From the IMG/VR virus record IMGVR_UViG_3300048592_000456, positions 1 through 52,056 of that record: a stretch of DNA of 52,056 nt, one strand, 5' to 3'. This DNA is from a virus. The notes beneath the pieces were generated by a model, which was not told where the DNA came from, made no database searches, and saw only the letters and a program-made list of their open reading frames with translations. This document shows, in pieces, positions 17,161 through 47,043 of this stretch. The position numbers were made by a program, and so were the translations under genes. Every line of letters begins with the position of its first letter. Position 1 is the stretch's first letter.

Positions 17161-18699
17161 TCAGAACCCGCCGCCGATGTCCAGCGGGTCGTCATACACG
17201 ATGTAGCCCTCCAAGTCCTCCGGCTCGGGCAGCGCGAACGCCTGCACGACGGCATCGCCCTTGTCCGTGGAGCGGCCGAGGCGCTTGCGGATGTCATCCT
17301 TCGACTCGATGACGAGACGGCCGCCGGCGCCGACCCGGTAGAGCGGCGTCACGAGGTCCCCGATGAGGTCATCGTCGGGCGGCAGGGCGATGGTGCTATC
17401 GAAGGCCGGGTCCAGCGCCTCGCGCAGATGCCACCACGCGGCCGCGCGGCGGTTCGCGAAGCCCAGCTCCCCCGACCGGTCAACGTGCTGCGACCGGCCC
17501 GCCGCGTTGAAGGCGACGATGCGCCGCCAGCCCTGCGCCCGTAGGATGTCCACGACGCCGGCGCCGAGCCCGATGACATCGACCACGGCCTCAGCGTGGG
17601 CCATGTTCTGCCCGGATGCCCGGAGCACGCCGGCGACCCGGCCGGCCGTCTGTGCGGTGTCCTCGCGATGGTGCGCGTCGATGCGGCTGATGGCGTCCCC
17701 GTGCCGGACCGCGAGCACCGTCCGGTCCTCGCCGTAGCGCGCCACGTCCACGCCCACGTTGACGAAGGGAGCGTACCCGCCGGCGAGGTCCCGCCAGCGC
17801 TCCACGGCCTTCTCCACCCATGCGAGGGGGATGACCACGTTGGCGTCCTCGGCCGCGAACTCGCCCAGCACGCGGTTGCGGTAGATGGCCGAGTCGGGTC
17901 CCCACTGCCGGGCGCGCTGGGCCGCCCATTCCTCGCTGATGCGACCCGCCGCCATCGCCTCCGCGAGCGTGACGTGCTTGGCCCACCAGTCCTCGTAGCC
18001 GGGCCGCCGGTGGTGGATGTCCGCGAAGCGCCCGACCGGCGCGCCCGGCGTCGAGCCCGCCCATGCGAAGGCGTCACGTCCCGCCACGCCGGCGCCCGAG
18101 AACGCGCCCTCCGACGCATCGAAGGTGGCCGGCAGGATGGACTTGGCCTCGTCGTACACGTAGAGCAGTTGGTCCGCGTGCGCGCCCTCGATGAGTTCCG
18201 GGCGGTTCGACGCGACCGCGAACGCCTGCCCGGACCGGAGCTTGATGGACATCTGGAGCAACTCCGACCCCTCGCGCCACCGGAGCGCCGGCGACACGAC
18301 GCGCGGGTACCACTTGTGGACCTCGGGCCAGAGGAAGTTGCGCAACTGGCTCCACGAGCCCGCCGTCGTGACCACCTTCCAGTCCACGCCGGCGCGTTCC
18401 CGGGTGTCCACGAACCAGAGGATGACCCACGATGACAGGGCGGTCTTGCCGAGCCCGTGGGGTCCGCGGGCGGACGCGCGCCGGCGCTCGCCCAGCATGT
18501 GGAGCGCCTCCAACTGGTACTCGGTCGGCCGCTCGCCCGGGTCGAAGCGCACGCGGTCCATGACCCAGCGGTCGGGGTCATACCAGTAGTCGCGTGGTCG
18601 GCTCTTGACGGGAGCACGGAGACGCGCGGCGGCGAGTGGCAGCACCGCCAGCAGCGCGTCTCCCGGCATCATCCGGCCGGCCGTCGTGCGACCGGCCAC
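17161..18699 (-). CDS. terL: Terminase large subunit
   Basis: This 512-residue motor and nuclease packages DNA into proheads. Walker A is RGPHGLGKT (residues 78-86), Walker B LLYVYDEA (178-185), followed by the coupling-motif region GSTPGAP. The RNase H-like nuclease domain starts with NVGVDVARYGEDRT (Asp318) and ends with an acidic DKGDAVVQAFA near the C-terminus. It starts 4 bases after the small-subunit stop. All key residues are present, so it should be active. Confidence 0.95.
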   Translation of the reverse strand: MAGRTTAGRMMPGDALLAVLPLAAARLRAPVKSRPRDYWYDPDRWVMDRVRFDPGERPTEYQLEALHMLGERRRASARGPHGLGKTALSSWVILWFVDTRERAGVDWKVVTTAGSWSQLRNFLWPEVHKWYPRVVSPALRWREGSELLQMSIKLRSGQAFAVASNRPELIEGAHADQLLYVYDEAKSILPATFDASEGAFSGAGVAGRDAFAWAGSTPGAPVGRFADIHHRRPGYEDWWAKHVTLAEAMAAGRISEEWAAQRARQWGPDSAIYRNRVLGEFAAEDANVVIPLAWVEKAVERWRDLAGGYAPFVNVGVDVARYGEDRTVLAVRHGDAISRIDAHHREDTAQTAGRVAGVLRASGQNMAHAEAVVDVIGLGAGVVDILRAQGWRRIVAFNAAGRSQHVDRSGELGFANRRAAAWWHLREALDPAFDSTIALPPDDDLIGDLVTPLYRVGAGGRLVIESKDDIRKRLGRSTDKGDAVVQAFALPEPEDLEGYIVYDDPLDIGGGF

Positions 18700-18702
18700 G
18701 GG

Positions 18703-19164
18703 TCAGCCCCCCCGCATGACCGCAGCGTGCTCGGCCAGCAGCGCCTCGGCCTCCGCGATGAGCGCGTCGGCGTCGAGCCCGTGCTCGGACGCGTACCGCT
18801 CGACGGCCTGTCGCACGTCCACGGTCACGCGTCGCCCGAACTCGTGCGGTCGGCGCCGCTCCAGCCACCACATGGCCGTCTGGGGGTTGGGCTTGACCTC
18901 GGCCCGGATGACGTTGCCGGCATCGTCGTACTGCGCCGGTCGCCCGAAGGCGTCATCCATGACCACGGCCGTCGCCCGGATGGCGGCTGTCGCCTCGGCC
19001 TCGTCGCACGCGCGTTGGACAGCGGCGGATGCGACACACCAGCGTTGCAGCGTCCGCACGTCCATGCCGGCGTACACCGCCGCGTCCGTCCGCGTGGCAC
19101 CGGAGCGCAGCGCCCGCGTGATGACCTCCAGCCGCTCCGGCGTGCGCAGCGTCTTGGCGCTCAT
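18703..19164 (-). CDS. terS: Terminase small subunit
   Basis: This 153-residue protein has an N-terminal helix-turn-helix, SGATRTDAAVYAGMDVRTLQRWC, typical of DNA-recognising small terminases. A helical AEATAAIRATAVVMDDAF, the PNPQTAMWWLERRRPHEFGRR segment common in this family, and a helical oligomerisation tail follow. ATGA-coupled to the gene before it and directly upstream of terL. Confidence 0.92.
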   Translation of the reverse strand: MSAKTLRTPERLEVITRALRSGATRTDAAVYAGMDVRTLQRWCVASAAVQRACDEAEATAAIRATAVVMDDAFGRPAQYDDAGNVIRAEVKPNPQTAMWWLERRRPHEFGRRVTVDVRQAVERYASEHGLDADALIAEAEALLAEHAAVMRGG

Positions 19165-19796
19165 TCGGGCACCGCCTCCACCACGGCGTAGACCTCGGGG
19201 ATGCCGGCGACCGACAGGATGCGGGCGAGCGCCTTGGGGCTGATGCGCACGACGTACATCGTGCTACCGGGTCCGCCCTCCGCGATGCCGCGCCGCTCCT
19301 GCTCCTGCGCGACGTGGCCGGCCTCGCGGCGGGTCACCTTCCGCTCGTCACGGGTCGGCGGGGCGGCCATGTCCGCCCGGATGCCGACCGGTGCGGGCGC
19401 GTCGCCCATGGATGCGGTCGCGTAGTGCCACGGGTTGCCGCAGCCGACGATGGGGACGGCCGCGCCGTCATCCGGGTCCGTGACCTCGGCCTGCCAGTCG
19501 GGACCGAGCCGCACGACGGCCGCGGGGTCGGGGCAGCCCTCGATGGCGCACCCGGCGACGGTCACCATCCGCCACTTCTCGTAGCCGCCCATCGGCTCGC
19601 CCGGTGCGGCGATGGCCTGACCCGGGCGCACGGTGTCCGTCTCGCCGTCGTCATCCTCCACCACGGGCACGGCGTCGCCCTCCACGATGGTCGGAGCGGC
19701 CTCGGAGGGGTCATCCGGGGTGGATGGAGCGGCCGGGGTCGTCTCGGGTCGCTCCGTGGCCTGCGTGGGCCGCTGCGTGGGCTTCCTGCGCGTCAT
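19161..19796 (-). CDS. Hypothetical protein with Cys/His cluster before terminase
   Basis: This 211-residue protein has a low-complexity Thr/Pro/Glu/Asp N-terminus (about 70 residues), then a domain with MVTVAGCAIEGCPDPAAVVRLG and IVGCGNPWHYAT, three Cys and a His suited to a zinc site. A charged helix and a beta C-terminus (YVVRISPKALARIL) follow. It is ATGA-coupled to the ParB-like gene upstream and terS downstream. No known family recognised. Confidence 0.72.
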   Translation of the reverse strand: MTRRKPTQRPTQATERPETTPAAPSTPDDPSEAAPTIVEGDAVPVVEDDDGETDTVRPGQAIAAPGEPMGGYEKWRMVTVAGCAIEGCPDPAAVVRLGPDWQAEVTDPDDGAAVPIVGCGNPWHYATASMGDAPAPVGIRADMAAPPTRDERKVTRREAGHVAQEQERRGIAEGGPGSTMYVVRISPKALARILSVAGIPEVYAVVEAVPE

Positions 19797-20407
19797 CGGG
19801 TACCTCCACGGACGGTCCGGGGTCGGCCCGGCTCGCCCCTCTGCTCGTCGGTCACGTCCGCGGGGTCGGCCGTGGTCCATCCCTTGCTGAACCCGGTCGC
19901 CCCGAGGGTGCCGCGCTTGGTCATGCGCCCATGGTCCATGAGCCGGTCAACCTCCTCATCGTCCATGCCGAGCCGGTGGGCGATGTCCGGTCGGGAGACA
20001 CCCATGGCGGCGAGGTCGTTCACGATGTCGGCCATGCGGATGACGGCGTGGGAGCCTCGGGCGCGGTTGTGCCGGATGGTCGCCATCCGCTGCGTCGCCG
20101 GGTCGATGTCCGCGAGGCGCACGACGGGCACGAGCCCGCCGGCGAGCGCGGCTACATCGGGGTCCGTGGTGCCCAGCGTCCACCGGTGGAAGCCATCGAC
20201 AATCTCGCCGTCGCGGCGCGCCACGATGGGCTGCGTCCAGCCGTTCTCCAGCAGCGAGAGCCGGAGCAGCGCCAACTCGGGCCGGGCGACCTTGTTGGGG
20301 TTGTAGTCGTTTGCCCGGAGGGTCCGCGGGTCCACCCACTCGACGGAGGCGAGGGGCTGCGTGGACGGGTCGCCCGATGGCGCCCGGATGATGGGTTCGT
20401 CCGTCAC
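19793..20407 (-). CDS. ParB N-terminal domain protein, IbrB-like
   Basis: This 204-residue protein has the ParB/Srx fold: VDPRTLRANDYNPNKV, LRLSLLENGWTQPIVARRD, EIVDGFHRW (the G-x-HR motif), then the segment RMATIRHNRARGSH typical of phage/IbrB-type members. A helix-turn-helix-like region (MGVSRPDIAHRLGMDDEEVDRL) follows. It overlaps the PAPS-reductase-like gene by ATGA. IbrA/IbrB pairs of exactly this composition are known as gene regulators in E. coli; other ParB-fold proteins are nucleases, CTPases or serine kinases, so the reaction is open. Confidence 0.85.
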   Translation of the reverse strand: MTDEPIIRAPSGDPSTQPLASVEWVDPRTLRANDYNPNKVARPELALLRLSLLENGWTQPIVARRDGEIVDGFHRWTLGTTDPDVAALAGGLVPVVRLADIDPATQRMATIRHNRARGSHAVIRMADIVNDLAAMGVSRPDIAHRLGMDDEEVDRLMDHGRMTKRGTLGATGFSKGWTTADPADVTDEQRGEPGRPRTVRGGTR

Positions 20408-21657
20408 GGGATGACCTCCGCTATGCGCCCGGATGCCGTGAGCGCGGCTATCTCGGCCTCGTACTCGCGCCGGCGTCGCACCGCGTCATCCGCGCCGCCC
20501 GCCGCCGTCTCCTTGCGGCCCTTCACGTCGCCCCGGACCGCGATGCGGAGCACGAGGGACCACGAGACACCGCAGCAGGGGCACCGCGCCTTCTCCGCGA
20601 GCGGCGTCGTGGAGCGCTTGTAGTGGCGCCGGAGGAACGATGCCACCCGGTCGGCCACGTACGGCTGGAACGCCGGCGGCTGCCGGTCGATGTGGTGCCG
20701 GATGAACTCGGTCCATGGGAGCCCGTCCGGCTTGGGCGGCAGACCACCGAACGCCCATAGCTCCGTCCGCGAGTAGCGCGCGGCGGCGGCGGCGCCCGGG
20801 ACCCGGTAGGCCATCCGGTCCCAGATGTCCGGGAAGCACTGCGCGAACATGTCGAGGTTGCGCAGCGGTTCCTCGCCATACGGCGGCGCGCACCGCTGCG
20901 CCCGGTGGGGGATGCCCAGCATCTCCATCGCGTCATACGCGCGGTTGTAGTCCCAGCCGAGCAGCGCCGGCGCGAGCCACACGTCCGGGACCGTCCAGTC
21001 GTACGCCGGGTAGACCTTCGTCACGTTGCCGGCCTCCGTCGCGCCGCCCGCGCGGGTCATCCACGGGTCGTGGAGGTGGTGCGTGATGGCGCGCCGGCGG
21101 TTGACCGACTCATCCGCCCGGATGCCCATCACGAGCGCGACGGCGCCGAGCCGGGCAGGGTGCAGGAGCCCGTTGATGTCCGGGATGGTCAGCCGCGCGT
21201 CGGGGTCATCGTGGAGGTAGCCCGGGACCGTCGTGATGGCCTCCGGCGGGAGCGGCCGGACCCAGAGGTCACGCGCCTCCGGTGCCCACGGGTACCACCA
21301 CGGCGACGTGGACGAGCACGCGTTCCGGTGCCGCACGGGGACGCAGTACCACTCCAAGTCCACGTCTGGTAGCTGGGCCACCCGGCGGACATACTGCTCC
21401 GTCTCGTAGGGGATGGCCTCCTCATCGAAGTGGATGACGCGGAGCCGCTGCCCGCGCCGGCGCGCCTCATCGAGCGCGAGGTTCAGGACCACGGTGGAGT
21501 CCTTCCCGCCGCTGAACGAGACAACCACGTGGTCGAACCGGTCGAACGTCTCGGCCATGCGCTCGCGGCCGAGCGTGAGCACGTCCTTCTCGACGGCGAC
21601 CGTATCCCAGCCCTTGCGCCGCTTCCCGGTGTACGGGTTGAGCGGCCGGCCCGCCAC
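20404..21657 (-). CDS. PAPS reductase / DndC-like ATP-pyrophosphatase, IbrA-like
   Basis: This 417-residue protein has the PP-loop SFSGGKDST at residues 47-55, a downstream HFDEE segment, ALVMGIRADESVNRR, and YPAYDWTVPDVW, the layout of phage and IbrA-type PAPS reductase-domain proteins. A C-terminal CPCCGVSW could bind zinc or a metal cluster. It is much longer than assimilatory CysH and lacks a recognisable C-terminal ECGLH, so a role in sulfate assimilation is unlikely; AMP-forming activation of a substrate, nucleic-acid modification or regulation is more probable. Coupled to the ParB partner downstream. Confidence 0.85.
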   Translation of the reverse strand: MAGRPLNPYTGKRRKGWDTVAVEKDVLTLGRERMAETFDRFDHVVVSFSGGKDSTVVLNLALDEARRRGQRLRVIHFDEEAIPYETEQYVRRVAQLPDVDLEWYCVPVRHRNACSSTSPWWYPWAPEARDLWVRPLPPEAITTVPGYLHDDPDARLTIPDINGLLHPARLGAVALVMGIRADESVNRRRAITHHLHDPWMTRAGGATEAGNVTKVYPAYDWTVPDVWLAPALLGWDYNRAYDAMEMLGIPHRAQRCAPPYGEEPLRNLDMFAQCFPDIWDRMAYRVPGAAAAARYSRTELWAFGGLPPKPDGLPWTEFIRHHIDRQPPAFQPYVADRVASFLRRHYKRSTTPLAEKARCPCCGVSWSLVLRIAVRGDVKGRKETAAGGADDAVRRRREYEAEIAALTASGRIAEVIP

Positions 21658-21663
21658 GGCGGG

Positions 21664-22179
21664 CTACCCGGGGCGCCGGACGGTCGGCCGGCGCGGGCAC
21701 TCGATACTGTGCTCGTCCGACGCCTCGCCGGCGCCGCAGAGGCACATGGGTCCGCCGTCCGCGTGCATCGGGACCATGACCCGGGTGCCGTGCCAGTCGG
21801 TCGGGACCATCCGCTCGGGACTGTCCACGGCCTTGTGCGGCGCGCCGATGGACACGAGCACGTGCCCACGCTCCGTCGCGCCCACGGCGTGCGGGACGTT
21901 GCCGGGGATGAGGTAGAGGTCGCCCGGCCGGACGATGTACGTCTCGCGGTCGATGCTGATGCTCCCCTCCCCGTCGATGCACAGGAGCAGATGGTCGCCC
22001 GGGTGCGCGTGCACCGGGAACGAGTGGAGCGGCGGGACCCACAGCACGTCGGCGCCCAGCACGTCTCCGGCGGATGCCATCAGGGGGAGCCCCGACGCCG
22101 TGGCGCCATGGACCGCGAGCGCGTCGGCCGGCGGTCGCTTCGGGATGTCGAACAGGACGTTGACGATGGTCGGCTTCAC
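21664..22179 (-). CDS. Cupin-domain protein
   Basis: This 171-residue protein has the two cupin motifs: FPVHAHPGDHLLLCIDGEG (about residues 54-72, metal ligands H57, H59, H63) and PGDLYLIPGNVPHAVGA (85-101, last His ligand). An RmlC-like barrel with a metal site is expected; many such proteins are small-molecule binders or dioxygenases. The tail carries MCLCGAG...SIECP, two Cys pairs. It starts by GTGA overlap after the ParB-like gene and is followed by the PAPS-reductase-like gene 6 bases on, so the three are one operon. Confidence 0.85.
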   Translation of the reverse strand: MKPTIVNVLFDIPKRPPADALAVHGATASGLPLMASAGDVLGADVLWVPPLHSFPVHAHPGDHLLLCIDGEGSISIDRETYIVRPGDLYLIPGNVPHAVGATERGHVLVSIGAPHKAVDSPERMVPTDWHGTRVMVPMHADGGPMCLCGAGEASDEHSIECPRRPTVRRPG

Positions 22180-22886
22180 GCGATGCGCTCCCACTGCTCG
22201 ATGATGGCGAGCAGGGCGGCCGGCTGGGTCATCCCCGGGGTCCGGTCCTGCACGCTCTTGACGGCCGCCATCACGCGGTCACGGTCCGCCGGCGCGAAGG
22301 TGAAGGCCACCGTGACGAACAGCCCGGGGTCCACTCCCGCCGCGATGGCGGACGGTGCGTCGAGGGTCGGGCGCCCGCCCTCCGGGTGGAGCCCGGAGCC
22401 GGGCGCGATGCCCGGCTTCGGGTCCGCGTAGGACGTGAGGAACGAGGTCGCGGCGTTCGCGATGCGCCCGGTGGTCCGCAGGAGGTCATCCACGTCATCG
22501 CGGTCCCACGCGGTGCCGGCGAGCGTGCCGGCGTTCGCCAACTCGGTCAGGAGGTCCGCGAGCCGGTCATCGTCATCCCGGCCGCGGTCGTGGGTCCGGT
22601 TGTCCGCGAGCATGATGCGGAGCGCCGTCTCGTCATCGGTGTCCACCAGCACCGCGTCGATGTCCTTCATCCCGGCCGCCCGGGCAGCGCGCCACGTCGT
22701 GTTGCCCGCGAGGATGACCATGCGCGGGGTCCCATCCGGGAGCGCCCGCTGCACGACGATGGGCCGGTACTGACCGAACGCCCTGATGCTCTCGGTCACG
22801 GCGCCCACGTCGCCCTCGCGGGCGTTCCGGGGATGCGGGGTCAGGTCGCCAAGGGGGACCCGGAGGACCGGGTGTCGGGTATCCAT
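22176..22886 (-). CDS. ParB-like nuclease-domain protein, second paralogue
   Basis: This 236-residue protein is a divergent ParB-fold protein: VPLGDLTPHPRNARE, SIRAFGQYRPIVVQRA, VILAGNTTWRAARAAGM, and the later LADNRTHDRGRDDDDRLADLL. The catalytic-region GNTTWRA replaces the GFHRW seen in the other ParB-like gene. The C-terminal third (FVTVAFTFAPADRDRVMAAVKSV) is a separate ferredoxin-like segment. It lies between the symporter and the cupin in one leftward run. A partition role is unlikely as no ParA is present. Confidence 0.83.
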   Translation of the reverse strand: MDTRHPVLRVPLGDLTPHPRNAREGDVGAVTESIRAFGQYRPIVVQRALPDGTPRMVILAGNTTWRAARAAGMKDIDAVLVDTDDETALRIMLADNRTHDRGRDDDDRLADLLTELANAGTLAGTAWDRDDVDDLLRTTGRIANAATSFLTSYADPKPGIAPGSGLHPEGGRPTLDAPSAIAAGVDPGLFVTVAFTFAPADRDRVMAAVKSVQDRTPGMTQPAALLAIIEQWERIA

Positions 22887-22907: not shown

Positions 22908-24206
22908 TCAGGTGCGCCGGCGCATCCCCCACGCCGTGAGCCCGCCCGAGAGCGCCCAGACGAGCAGCGACGCCGTGATGATGGCCGGCCACTCGCCCCG
23001 GAGGTTGCCGTAGGCGGACACGGGGAGCCCGATGGCGATGGCGAGCCCGATGCCCCACGCGACCCAGCGGCCGCGCACCCGGTCGGACCGGAGGGTGAGG
23101 ATGGTCGGCCAGAACGTCGAGGCGCGGACCGTCCCGTAGATGATGAACAGACCCACGATGGTCATGCCCGGGATGTTGGCGATGAGCACGCCACCGATGC
23201 CGAGCGCCACCATGCCCCATCGGGCGCGGGTCACGGCGCGCTCCACGTCGCGGGTCCCGTCGTGGCCCACGAGCGAGCCGAAGGCGACCGCCATGGAGTC
23301 GAGGGTGGACACGAGCCCGGCGAGGATGAGCACCGCGAAGGGGATGGTGGTCCATGCCGGGAGGTAGAACTGGACCGTCGTGATGTTCACCGTCTGGGCC
23401 GACTCGACGGGGATGCCGGCGCCGCCGGCGATGAAGCCCAACTGGCCCAGCGTCAGGGGCACCACGGCGAACGCGGCCGCCGCGACGATGAACGCGGCCT
23501 TGACGCGCCCGGCCTCCGTCGCCCACGTGCGCTGCCAGAAGGACTGGTCCCCGAACGGACCCGACAGGAGCCCGATGGTGGTCGGGATGCCGAAGGACAG
23601 GGCGATGAGCAGCGGGTCCTTCCCGGACGTGCCGCCGAACCCGGCGACGGCCGTCGAGTAGCCGCCCGACTCGATGATGACCCACGGCACGATGACCGCC
23701 GCGATGGCGAGGATGATGAGCATCTGGAGCCAGTCGGACGCGAGCGACGCGCGCAGCCCGCCGATGAGCGAGTAGGACAGGGCGAACACGGCGAGCCCGA
23801 TGGTCAGGGGCACGAAGGCGAGCCCGGTCACCTGCGCGATGAACACACCGCCGGCGAGCAACTGGACGGCGAAGGACCCCAGCGCGAGCAAGCCCATCTG
23901 CGTCAGGTAGAGCCGGTGCACCGCCGGCCCGTGGCGGTCGCGCATGTACGCCGGGAGGGTGTAGCCGTCCGGCACGCGCTCCCGGATGAGCGCCGCGAAG
24001 GCCGCGAACAGCAGGAGGCAGAGGACGTTCGGGATGGTGAACCACGCGAGCCCCCAGAGCCCGTTCTGATACGCCTGCTGCGCCGACACGAACAGCGACG
24101 GCGCCCAGACCCAGTTGCTCGCGATGGCGAGCCCGGCGGCGGCGAACGCCACGCGGCGGTGCGCGACGAGGAACCCCTCCTTGCGCTCGATGGCGGATGC
24201 GGTCAT
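22908..24206 (-). CDS. Sodium:solute symporter (SSF) family membrane protein
   Basis: This 432-residue integral membrane protein has about 12 hydrophobic segments, starting near residue 17. SNWVWAPSLFVSAQQAYQNG early on, GLRASLASDWLQMLII in the middle (the family's G-G...TD-QM-like motif) and VSTLDSMAVAFGSL later (the conserved S/T-rich segment before the last helices, sodium-site region) identify the SSF/LeuT-fold group. It is shorter than most bacterial members (about 480-550). Sugar, proline, urea and acetate transporters share the fold, so the substrate cannot be told. The ATG at 24206 has GGGGAGACACCCGACC. No frameshift, so probably functional cargo. Confidence 0.85.
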   Translation of the reverse strand: MTASAIERKEGFLVAHRRVAFAAAGLAIASNWVWAPSLFVSAQQAYQNGLWGLAWFTIPNVLCLLLFAAFAALIRERVPDGYTLPAYMRDRHGPAVHRLYLTQMGLLALGSFAVQLLAGGVFIAQVTGLAFVPLTIGLAVFALSYSLIGGLRASLASDWLQMLIILAIAAVIVPWVIIESGGYSTAVAGFGGTSGKDPLLIALSFGIPTTIGLLSGPFGDQSFWQRTWATEAGRVKAAFIVAAAAFAVVPLTLGQLGFIAGGAGIPVESAQTVNITTVQFYLPAWTTIPFAVLILAGLVSTLDSMAVAFGSLVGHDGTRDVERAVTRARWGMVALGIGGVLIANIPGMTIVGLFIIYGTVRASTFWPTILTLRSDRVRGRWVAWGIGLAIAIGLPVSAYGNLRGEWPAIITASLLVWALSGGLTAWGMRRRT

Positions 24207-44154: not shown

Positions 44155-44808
44155 TCAGACCGGCTCCCACGCCTGCGTCAGATGCTCCGGCCACGCCCGG
44201 GACGGCGCGTAGCCCATGGCCGCGAGCACCGGCCCGTACCGGCCCTCCCAATCCTCCAGCACGATGATGGGGCGGTCCCGGTCGATGGTCCGGGCGGCGC
44301 CGCGGAGAAGCTCGGCCTCGTGCCACTCGACATCAGCCTTGATGAGCGCGACGTGGTGGAGGTCCATCCTGTCCACGGTGTCCGTGTGCGCGTCGAAGGC
44401 GACCATCCCGGGCTGCGGGTACGGGTCCGTCGCGACCACGGCCGCGTGCCCGCGGTTGGCGTCCTCGTAGGCCATCGAGACGGTGCCCACGTGGTCCGAC
44501 AGGGCGACCGGGTGGATGGTCACGTTGGGCAGATGCGCCGTGTTCATCCGGAGCAGCCGGAGGTTGCCGGGCATCGGCTCGAACGCGTGGACGTGGACGG
44601 GCAGGTTCTCCGCGAGCGGCACGGCGTAGGTGCCAATCATCGCGCCGGCGTCGATGACGAGCCCGCCGGACCGGAGCCGCGGGTGCTCCACGAGCCACTG
44701 CACGATGGCCGACTCCCACCACGTGCCGCGCGCCATGTGGTCCGACACGTAGTCGGGCGAGGGGTGGACGTGGAACAGCCGGCCGCCGACCCGCACGGAC
44801 CGGCTCAC
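44155..44808 (-). CDS. FkbM-family methyltransferase
   Basis: This 217-residue SAM methyltransferase has motif I VIDAGAMIGTYAVPLAE, HAFEPMPGNLRLLRMN after it, VALSDHVG, and LIKADVEWHEAELLRGA, the usual FkbM order. FkbM enzymes O-methylate sugars or similar hydroxyls. GTGA overlap with the next methyltransferase suggests the pair acts in one pathway. Confidence 0.87.
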   Translation of the reverse strand: MSRSVRVGGRLFHVHPSPDYVSDHMARGTWWESAIVQWLVEHPRLRSGGLVIDAGAMIGTYAVPLAENLPVHVHAFEPMPGNLRLLRMNTAHLPNVTIHPVALSDHVGTVSMAYEDANRGHAAVVATDPYPQPGMVAFDAHTDTVDRMDLHHVALIKADVEWHEAELLRGAARTIDRDRPIIVLEDWEGRYGPVLAAMGYAPSRAWPEHLTQAWEPV

Positions 44809-45404
44809 CGCTTTCGGGCCGCCCACGACTTGTCCACGGCCGGGAGGATGTCCCACTCGCCGGACGGCAGGAGCACGTCACGGACCACGCGCGCCACGTC
44901 TGTATCGTCCGTGAGGTCATCCCCGAGGTAGTCGTGCAGCACGAGCACGCCGCCCGGGTCGATGCGCGGACCCCAGACGGTCACGTCGGTCAGGACGTGG
45001 CGGTAGGAGTGGTCGCCGTCGATGAATGCCATCCCGACCGGGTTCACGATGAGCGGCGCGGCGATGGCGGACAGGGTGCGCAGGGCGATGACCGGCCATC
45101 CGTGCTCGTCCATGTTCACGCGGAACCGGGCGAGCGCGAGGCGCTGGCGCTCGGCGTGCGCGTGGTCCCGCTCATCCGGCCGCGGGTCCGGCCACGGGTC
45201 GATGCAGACAACCCGGGCGCCCATCCCCGACGCGGCGCCGTACGCGAGCGCGAGGGTGGACGCGCCGACGTAGGACCCGACCTCGATGATGACCCGGGAC
45301 CCGGGCACGGCGGCCGCGTGGTCCGCGAGCATCGTCGCCTCGCGGCTGGAGTGGAGCCCGCCGAGCGTCAGCAGCGACGGCGGGAAACGCATCTGCACGG
45401 TCAC
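44805..45404 (-). CDS. Class I SAM methyltransferase (Methyltransf_24/CmcI-like)
   Basis: This 199-residue protein has VIIEVGSYVGASTLALAYG (motif I), VVCIDPWPD, MAFIDGDHSYRHVLTDV (acidic motif with the DGDHSY signature of Methyltransf_24) and GGVLVLHDYLGDD. This family methylates sugars and cephalosporin-like substrates. GTG 45404 in GTGA overlap with the glycosyltransferase fusion. Confidence 0.87.
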   Translation of the reverse strand: MTVQMRFPPSLLTLGGLHSSREATMLADHAAAVPGSRVIIEVGSYVGASTLALAYGAASGMGARVVCIDPWPDPRPDERDHAHAERQRLALARFRVNMDEHGWPVIALRTLSAIAAPLIVNPVGMAFIDGDHSYRHVLTDVTVWGPRIDPGGVLVLHDYLGDDLTDDTDVARVVRDVLLPSGEWDILPAVDKSWAARKR

Positions 45405-46735
45405 CAGCGCTTGTCCTCCGGGAGCCACGAACCGGCCCAATGGTGGGCGCCGAACGCCCACGGCTGTTCCTCGTCGTGCCGGCGCGCGCGGTGCGTCCGG
45501 GCCTGAGTGTAGTGGTACGGGTAGAAGGCCCCGGGCGGCAGGAGCAGCACGTCGGCGCGCCACGGCAGGACCGTCGTGAGCACGCCCGGGCCGGTCGCCT
45601 CCGGGATGTCCTCCACGCCGGCCGTGAGGCGCGAGACGGCCACGTCGATGCACTCGCGGATGGCCGGGTGCGCCGGCGCCGCGCCGATGACCGCGTTGGG
45701 CACGCGCCGGGCGTCCTCCCATGCCGCGAATGCCGACAGGGGCAGCAGCGCGTCCAGCGGGCGGTACGGCTCCACGTCGCTGTCCACGTAGACGCCGCCC
45801 TCGTTCCAGAGCGCCTCCAGCCGCACGAGGTCGGCCAGTTGCGCGCCATGGCGGACGCGGTGCCAGTGGGGGGACGTGAGGGGGAACCGGGCCGGGTCGA
45901 TGGGGTCGCGCCACGTGCGGAACTCCCACCCGGGATGGAGCCGCTGCCACGCGTCCCACCACGCCTCAACCTGCGCCGATGTTTCACGTGGAACGGTCCG
46001 GTGGAGGATGCGCGGGATGCCGGCGCCCGACGTGTCCACCGCCGGCGACGCCTCCGACCGGATGGCCCGGACGGCCTCGGCGTTGCCGCGGACCGCGAGG
46101 TAGCGGGCGGCCCGGGCGCGGTTCCGGTTGTGCGACGGCGTGCCCCGCTTGCCCTCCGGCGCGGTCGCGTGCCAGAGGTGCCAGAGGTCCCCGTCGATGC
46201 GGGCGATGGGCGGCCCGAACGTCTCGCACAGGACCGCGAAGGCGTTGTCCTCGAAGCCCCACCCGACGAACGCCTCATCGAAGCCGCCGGTGGCCTCCCA
46301 GAGCGGCCGCGGGACGGCGATGACGCTGCTCACCATGTCCCGGTAGGTCCGGGCCACGTGCCGCTCCCACGAGCCCGCGTAGCCCGCCATGACGCGCTGG
46401 CTGCCGGTCCGGTTCAGGTCCTTGCGGACGGTGTACGGCATGACCATGCCGCCGGTCATCAGCGCGCGCTCGACGGCCGCACGGGTCCGCGCCGGGTCGC
46501 AGATGACATCGGAGTCGATGATGACCGCCGCGTCCCACTCGCCGGCGTTCCGGGCGGCCCGGTTGATGGCGAGCGAGCGGTTGAAGAGCCCATCGCCGGC
46601 AGGGTGGTGCCCCTCCACGATGGGCCAGTCGGGGAAGTGCCGGGACCACCAGTCCCGGCACCATGCCCAGAGCGCATCCCGGTCGGGTTGGCCGTCGCGC
46701 CGGGGGACCAGCACGACGGTCCGGGTCGCCGTCAC
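45401..46735 (-). CDS. Two-domain glycosyltransferase (GT2-like plus GT32-like)
   Basis: This 444-residue protein's N-terminal half has AAVIIDSDVICDP (DSD 74-76) and GGFDEAFVGWGFEDNAFA (150-167), the pattern of GT2/galactosyltransferase-like domains. From 240, IPRILHRTVPRE, LRHPGW-like region, LADLVRLEALWNEGGVYVDSDVEPY (DSD 318-320) is the DXD domain of GT32-type glycosyltransferases. Two active sites in one chain suggest sequential sugar addition. GTGA overlap with the holin-like gene. Confidence 0.85.
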   Translation of the reverse strand: MTATRTVVLVPRRDGQPDRDALWAWCRDWWSRHFPDWPIVEGHHPAGDGLFNRSLAINRAARNAGEWDAAVIIDSDVICDPARTRAAVERALMTGGMVMPYTVRKDLNRTGSQRVMAGYAGSWERHVARTYRDMVSSVIAVPRPLWEATGGFDEAFVGWGFEDNAFAVLCETFGPPIARIDGDLWHLWHATAPEGKRGTPSHNRNRARAARYLAVRGNAEAVRAIRSEASPAVDTSGAGIPRILHRTVPRETSAQVEAWWDAWQRLHPGWEFRTWRDPIDPARFPLTSPHWHRVRHGAQLADLVRLEALWNEGGVYVDSDVEPYRPLDALLPLSAFAAWEDARRVPNAVIGAAPAHPAIRECIDVAVSRLTAGVEDIPEATGPGVLTTVLPWRADVLLLPPGAFYPYHYTQARTHRARRHDEEQPWAFGAHHWAGSWLPEDKRW

Positions 46736-47043
46736 TTCGTGAGTCCGCCCTGCGTCACCTGATGGACGCCCACGGCTGCGGTCGCGCAGGTCAGCCACGC
46801 CACGAACACGACCAGCCCCTCATCCAGCGTGTCCACGCCGACCGCGATACCGGCCAGCAGGAACAGGACGGCCGAAGCGATGAAGGCGAGCGATGCGCCG
46901 GTCACGCGAGCGGCGACGGCCGGGAACGTCCGGAGGATGAGCGCCACGAGCCCCGTGATGATGGTCGCTGCCACGCCAGCCCCGGCGGCCGTGAGCAGGA
47001 TGGCGAACGTCAGGTTATCCGGGGTCGGGTCGATGGGGGTCAT
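46732..47043 (-). CDS. Three-span holin-like membrane protein
   Basis: This 103-residue protein has three hydrophobic spans (about residues 12-35, 48-69, 76-96) and a short polar C-terminus, the class I holin form. ATGA-coupled to the small acidic gene. It would make the membrane lesion for lysis, though several other small membrane proteins here compete for this role. Confidence 0.6.
   Translation of the reverse strand: MTPIDPTPDNLTFAILLTAAGAGVAATIITGLVALILRTFPAVAARVTGASLAFIASAVLFLLAGIAVGVDTLDEGLVVFVAWLTCATAAVGVHQVTQGGLTK

Follow-up and report, generated by a model that had tools for sequence, protein, structure and literature searches.

A five-gene form of a conserved cluster around PP-loop ATPases and ParB-fold proteins beside phage terminase genes, with a possible role in DNA hypermodification

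What brings a solute transporter, a cupin, a PP-loop ATPase and two ParB-fold proteins together in one gene run that ends directly before the terminase genes of a virus? The question is raised by IMG/VR virus record IMGVR_UViG_3300048592_000456, a complete-looking genome of 52,056 bp with a 28-bp direct repeat at its ends and 73% G+C, analysed here over its whole length (the window). The minus strand holds most of its predicted genes, including the run (24206-19793) and all features of the run and the terminase genes located below; the gene order is SSS - ParB2 - cupin - IbrA - IbrB - small open reading frame (ORF) - TerS - TerL. An earlier reading of this DNA from the sequence alone (the original prediction) described four coupled genes next to terminase, in agreement with coordinates, overlaps and coding signal, but took the run to be complete: a fifth gene at its head, encoding a sodium:solute symporter (SSS) protein (24206-22908), had been missed. 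The SSS gene lies 21 nt from ParB2, ParB2 and the cupin gene overlap by 19 nt, 6 nt separate the cupin gene from IbrA, and IbrA and IbrB overlap by 4 nt. Codon-position GC of about 0.72/0.52/0.93 marks the run genes, TerS and TerL as coding. The run genes are under purifying selection, their ratio of nonsynonymous to synonymous substitution rates against relatives being 0.24-0.52, as against 0.28-0.58 for the phage's own terminase genes, in a rough pairwise estimate on DNA of 73% G+C. The five proteins belong to recognizable families, the PP-loop and other motifs are intact, and the linkage is conserved among relatives. We are confident that the five genes represent a functional module that is truly conserved and has PP-loop ATPases at its center. 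More tentatively, we favor a modular pathway of ATP-dependent ligation, most likely DNA hypermodification, with chemistry, substrate and DNA target that we infer.

Linkage was counted only in loci with enough flanking sequence, which were not dereplicated and so are not independent events; the scans report the best 80 loci, favoring close relatives, and E-values of pattern-seeded scans are relative to the candidates. With the SSS protein alone as seed, viral contigs yielded 55 loci, 38-87% identical and nearly all with IbrA and IbrB, and ParB2, IbrA and IbrB were each present in 30/31 loci. The bicupin (~265 aa) of related clusters found each of these three in 46/46 loci. A further seed was PAPSR2, a stand-alone second PP-loop protein of relatives (about 265 aa, S[GA]GKDS, distinct from IbrB by sequence), which found ParB2 and IbrB in 65/65 loci each, IbrA in 64/65 and SSS in 59/65. 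IbrA recovered 5 loci as a single protein and 384 relatives as a profile. In the neighborhood search that had been proposed as a check, ParB2, cupin or transporter, IbrA and IbrB, far from co-occurring rarely, recur as one block in the clade nearest to the window (IbrA-seeded loci).

In species genomes, an SSS profile found about 60 loci with module genes as well as some 20 cellular relatives that have no IbrA/IbrB. The module loci are mostly prophage-like and from Clostridia, with others in Treponema and in two metagenome-assembled genomes (MAGs), one of Bacteroidales and one of Chloroflexi, the latter with an 87% transporter. A GpA-type terminase comes after the module in Anaerotruncus colihominis DSM 17241 (L110), a cultured carrier like Blautia sp. 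An249 (L071) and Agathobaculum desmolans ATCC 43058 (L099). A single MAG contig (L063) hints at Chloroflexi as the host of the window. Across loci, identities of 30-60% are common among module proteins, and the neighboring terminases are of different families, thus the linkage is not merely descent from one phage. Opposite-strand ORFs in high-GC loci (clusters c1, c7, c8) were judged to be artefacts.

The accessory genes vary. Among collected loci with ParB2, IbrA and IbrB, SSS is present in 170, the bicupin in 79 and a single cupin of the window's type in 3, and 10 have none of these; the totals are not frequencies, since these same genes served as seeds for the collection. SSS together with a cupin of either kind was found in 0 of them; the window stands apart, its combination of SSS and a single cupin without PAPSR2 being seen nowhere else in the collected set. 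In a few loci the same slot holds a TctC-type binding protein (L160, L163, L164) or an aldehyde dehydrogenase (L151). Variable enzymes around a fixed IbrA-IbrB-ParB core look like a pathway with variable substrates. Among 50,697 named phage records, the bicupin occurs in 0 and PAPSR2 in 1, the same single record that has SSS, and the near-absence of bicupin and PAPSR2 from named phages may explain why the cluster went unnoticed. In the open-access literature we found no paper joining a solute symporter, phage, ParB and terminase; papers on ParB, ectoine synthase and phage, on DUF3440 and phage, or on cupin, ParB, PAPS and phage appear merely to list such genes.

The chemical logic of the module comes from its relatives. 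The nearest ones (L007 and L002) carry PAPSR2 at the corresponding position, and a class-II glutaminase stands directly behind PAPSR2 in 16/16 loci that carry glutaminase; the N-terminal Met-Cys is kept in the six glutaminases read. Asparagine synthetase is likewise composed of glutaminase and PP-loop. The pathway modifying DNA or a metabolite that had been suggested for the run is where this evidence points, although the PAPSR2 and glutaminase of the relatives, which supply the logic, had escaped notice. In Eubacterium plexicaudatum ASF492 (L084:7671-10917), PAPSR2 is interrupted by an inserted element with an rve/Mu-type transposase.

The IbrA-like PP-loop ATPase of the window (20404..21657, 417 aa) consists of a PAPS-reductase-fold N-terminal part and a DUF3440 region (PF01507, 47 bits, cut-off 22.5; PF11922, 30.8 bits, cut-off 25; phrog_2302, 1e-83). 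Its PP-loop SGGKDS (residues 49-54; 21496..21513) is invariant at S49-D53 and almost invariant at S54 across 29 aligned relatives; the other parts of the ATP-pyrophosphatase signature are invariant too. The AlphaFold2 model (pLDDT 85) places the PP-loop domain nearest to FAD synthase (VIA Z 15.8, 3.2 Å, 179 residues), followed by APS/PAPS reductases and the ATP sulfurylase CysD at Z about 14 (CysD 14.0), a comparison carried by the PP-loop domain, the C-terminal part being barely covered. Assimilatory PAPS reductase is rejected and so, as had been predicted, is sulfate assimilation: IbrA scores 17.2 bits with the CysH model NF002537, where the cut-off is 154. In Microbacterium phage Leaf (L146:1097-6152) an IbrA-like protein lies at the genome end with no IbrB neighbor and adjoins glycosyltransferases, a methyltransferase and an acetyltransferase.

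The PAPS-reductase-type PP-loop and a weak sequence similarity are shared with DndC, SspD and BrxP, which brings in DNA phosphorothioation or another sulfur transfer, in which IbrA would stand in for DndC/SspD, paired with a cysteine desulfurase of the host. The DndC matches (29.1 bits; 2.5e-7 in PADLOC) and the ParB fold of IbrB, a fold stated also for DndB in a review (PMC12839542), would suit it. However, the 29.1 bits are a tenth of the cut-off of the DndC model TIGR03183 (290.4). The best cysteine column is 27/33, and neither IbrA nor PAPSR2 has an invariant cysteine, which argues against persulfide chemistry; the glutaminase and AsnB neighbors indicate nitrogen, not sulfur. DndC is not among the 50 entries listed for the structure alignment of IbrA, from which no difference in fold can be concluded, and general scans, with no search by name, gave no DndD/DndE or SspB/SspC among the window proteins. 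We regard sulfur transfer as very unlikely indeed.

Directly after IbrA comes the gene for the IbrB-like ParB-fold protein (19793..20407, 204 aa; phrog_2159, 9.4e-61), which carries the RMATIRHNRARGSH segment; the IbrA/IbrB-like coupling of an SGGKDS PAPS-reductase protein to such a partner was correctly foreseen and is borne out by the Pfam and phrog matches and by the overlap of the two genes. Its motifs include DGFHRW (residues 71-76; 20180..20197; alignment A3) and HNRARGSH (residues 113-120; 20048..20071), where HNRARG and H120 are invariant in 24 relatives. The second ParB-fold protein, ParB2 (22176..22886, 236 aa), has a ParB_N domain (PF02195, 40.0 bits, cut-off 26.3; phrog_723, 1e-40). 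The E. coli IbrA/IbrB pair (phrog_2302/phrog_2159, COG3969) has the same arrangement, with a PAPS-reductase and DUF3440 protein followed by an overlapping gene for an HNRARG ParB-fold protein; whereas known pairs stand alone, the window adds ParB2, a cupin and SSS, and the relatives add PAPSR2 and glutaminase.

These named homologues, together with an IbrB model (pLDDT 75) that has helix-turn-helix-like C-terminal helices and Noc/ParB/KorB as its best Foldseek matches, fit a role of IbrA/IbrB as transcription co-activators of late or prophage genes, with their neighbors as mere passengers. An invariant PP-loop and ATP-pyrophosphatase signature speak against this, and, unlike passengers, the accessory genes each find IbrA/IbrB at 97-100% of viral loci. 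Moreover, a cupin-ParB fusion exists: gp104 of Mycobacterium phage Gaia (L144:5299-6198) joins an ectoine-synthase-type cupin (PF06339, 1.3e-32) to an IbrB-like ParB beside an IbrA-like gene, tying a cupin to the IbrA/IbrB system again. We consider pure co-activation improbable.

The single-domain cupin of the window (21664..22194, 176 aa; PF07883, 2.1e-13) is, unlike that of Gaia, a separate protein and lies outside the ectoine synthase family (NF009806, 17.3 bits against a cut-off of 128; no PF06339 match), so that an assignment as ectoine synthase is rejected. The metal cupin and the second ParB-fold protein named in the original prediction are both confirmed by their domain matches. The three histidines of HAHPGDH (residues 62-68; 21991..22011) are invariant in alignment A6 and resemble metal ligands, and the nearest PDB chain is 9ug7 (7e-18). 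A viral-contig scan with this cupin as a single protein gave no match; its relatives (L005, L151, L153, L154, L158) were reached only via IbrA loci.

The SSS protein (22908..24206, 432 aa) belongs by sequence over most of its length to the family of DUR3, SGLT and choline transporters (PF00474, 2.9e-12, 46.6 bits, cut-off 22.8; TIGR00813, 9.8e-22). In contrast to these, it is phage-encoded, adjoins PP-loop ligases and forms a subfamily of its own, in which FGDQSFWQR (residues 218-226; 23529..23555) is invariant (alignment A1). In the same alignment S300 is invariant and T301 nearly so, a pair that would match the sodium-site Ser/Thr of PutP; transport and sodium coupling are predicted. The N-terminal helix of most phage relatives is missing in the window and equally in L007 (87% relative), with which it shares the start position. 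A PDB profile search gave the urea symporter DUR3 as the nearest solved structure, then choline and SGLT transporters; with these coming next and distances large, we do not claim urea as the substrate. In one subgroup (L009, L011, L012, L046, L057) a 2-oxoglutarate-Fe(II) oxygenase gene lies two genes before SSS, upstream of ParB2 (PF13759, 1e-14 in L009).

The cellular relatives of the transporter have telling neighbors. In seven loci (L064, L065, L069, L089, L128, L137, L139) the SSS gene adjoins an AsnB-like PP-loop ligase without the N-terminal glutaminase Cys2, in five (L066, L068, L070, L072, L106; four distinct genomes, as L066 and L068 share one contig) another SGGIDS-motif protein, and in L125 a class-II tRNA-synthetase-like protein. 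In an approximate, midpoint-rooted tree the phage and cellular transporters interleave; given the ligase neighbors in cells, the subfamily has thus come to stand beside adenylate-forming ligases on more than one occasion. The same seven loci also encode a protein that begins with CxxC and matches Toprim weakly. In a Bdellovibrio MAG (L076:3126-5211) bicupin and SSS genes lie 16 bp apart, with no IbrA/IbrB.

Cells in which the transporter adjoins AsnB-like genes and no ParB genes, and the SSS-bicupin pair standing alone in L076, suit auxiliary metabolism. The infected cell would then be served by the uptake and amidation or transformation of a small metabolite (a nitrogen compound or a carboxylate), or the cluster would make an effector or solute in free form, and the ParB-fold proteins would be metabolite kinases or regulators of the operon. 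Transporter, cupins, aldehyde dehydrogenase and TctC-type protein are all metabolic as well. Yet IbrB and ParB2 are kept in essentially all module loci, beyond a regulator's need, the cluster adjoins packaging genes, and it holds no complete known metabolic route. We judge this explanation somewhat unlikely.

The closest precedent for ligation is an AsnB-like enzyme, CmoY, which couples glycine to the carboxymethylcytosine of phage DNA; its neighborhoods contain ParBc proteins in many cases, and some of the ligases have a glutaminase domain (PMC12783734). A like logic of PP-loop, AMP-forming ligases with ParB neighbors and glutaminase is proposed for our module, whose candidate ligases, in contrast, are of the PAPS-reductase rather than the AsnB type, whose PP-loop and ParB proteins belong to another subfamily, and which adds a transporter and cupins. 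Membership in the CmoA/CmoX/CmoY system is rejected, as the handle genes CmoA and CmoX are missing. Linkage found from separate seeds, glutaminase behind PAPSR2, AsnB-like neighbors in cells, an adenylyl-transfer fold and the CmoY precedent together suggest, still tentatively, the ligation pathway.

Such a pathway could proceed as follows. The SSS protein would import a small carboxylate- or amine-like metabolite, in whose stead related clusters carry the ~265-aa cupin or, in single loci, aldehyde dehydrogenase or TctC-type binding protein, and the cupin of the window may reshape the metabolite. In most relatives, though not in the window, where PAPSR2 is missing, PAPSR2, sometimes with glutaminase directly behind it, would adenylate a carboxyl or carbonyl group and add an amine or ammonia, as asparagine synthetase does; the reaction is proposed, the gene pair observed. 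Finally, IbrA, set on DNA by its obligate partner IbrB and probably by ParB2, would make the last adenylate and, ahead of packaging, attach the product to the genome of the phage or to some other target bound to DNA. Since no handle enzyme was found, an acceptor in DNA would have to be a base carbonyl or a phosphate; alternatively, the acceptor may be something other than DNA. Base carbonyls and phosphates are known targets of PP-loop enzymes.

Several observations weigh against ligation to DNA. A profile search found no PAPSR2 in the window, which also has no glutaminase; the substrate of the SSS protein is not readable from its sequence; and PAPS-reductase relatives include enzymes that work on free metabolites. 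CmoA (carboxy-S-adenosylmethionine synthase, TIGR00740) occurs in 0/38 records including the window, and a CmoX-type C5-cytosine transferase (PF00145) in 2/38 records and not in the window. Many named phages have IbrA-IbrB without SSS, cupin or PAPSR2, so that the core pair can act alone. In addition, Sandt et al. (2002) are said to have found that IbrA/IbrB activate transcription of the prophage eib gene in E. coli, and the pair is not known to have another phenotype.

A defense or anti-defense function had also been raised, and no sign of one was seen. PADLOC recognized no defense system in the run, giving weak matches to DndC, BrxP and MTase_II (best 7.7e-9). An adenylyl-transfer fold, ParB-fold NTPases and the occurrence of the cluster in phages and prophages would be compatible with, e.g., making or destroying a nucleotide signal, but no effector gene (nuclease, membrane toxin) was recognized among the recurrent neighbors, and the fixed position beside terminase is unusual for defense cargo. 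Defense or counter-defense is very unlikely.

Elsewhere in the window, TerS (18703..19164; phrog_4102, 8e-9) and TerL (17161..18699; phrog_2, 1.3e-28) follow the run. A 14-bp palindrome, GTGGACATGTC(C/A)AC, has eight sites (15343, 26523, 28512, 34238, 36981, 38183, 40496, 42644), several of them inside larger repeats of 40-88 nt in the early region; with up to two mismatches on both strands there are 16 matches versus 0.9 expected by chance. None of the collected loci has an exact copy; the palindrome is a possible operator/stoperator or ParB-like site. Away from the run lie genes for an FkbM-type methyltransferase (44155-44856) and a galactosyltransferase/DXD glycosyltransferase (45401-46798).

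Hundreds of uncultivated viruses share the block, as do prophages of gut Clostridia, of spirochaetes and of other bacteria, and it is undescribed in the open-access literature searched. It is unusual for a tailed phage to keep a symporter among its core genes. It is possible, though doubtful as a whole, that phages of several bacterial phyla share a new hypermodification chemistry, in which an imported or cupin-made molecule would be ligated to a base carbonyl or backbone phosphate of DNA with no methyltransferase handle and under the guidance of ParB-fold proteins, E. coli IbrA/IbrB being a stripped-down relative whose effect on transcription is secondary. The job of E. coli ibrA/ibrB may be of the same kind as that of the module. 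The unexplained IbrA/IbrB pair is now tied to transporter, cupin and ligase genes, which opens its function to tests in a cultured strain. If the target is DNA, the modification of phage DNA would gain a route based on imported metabolites, with a bearing on restriction escape and on enzymes usable on DNA.

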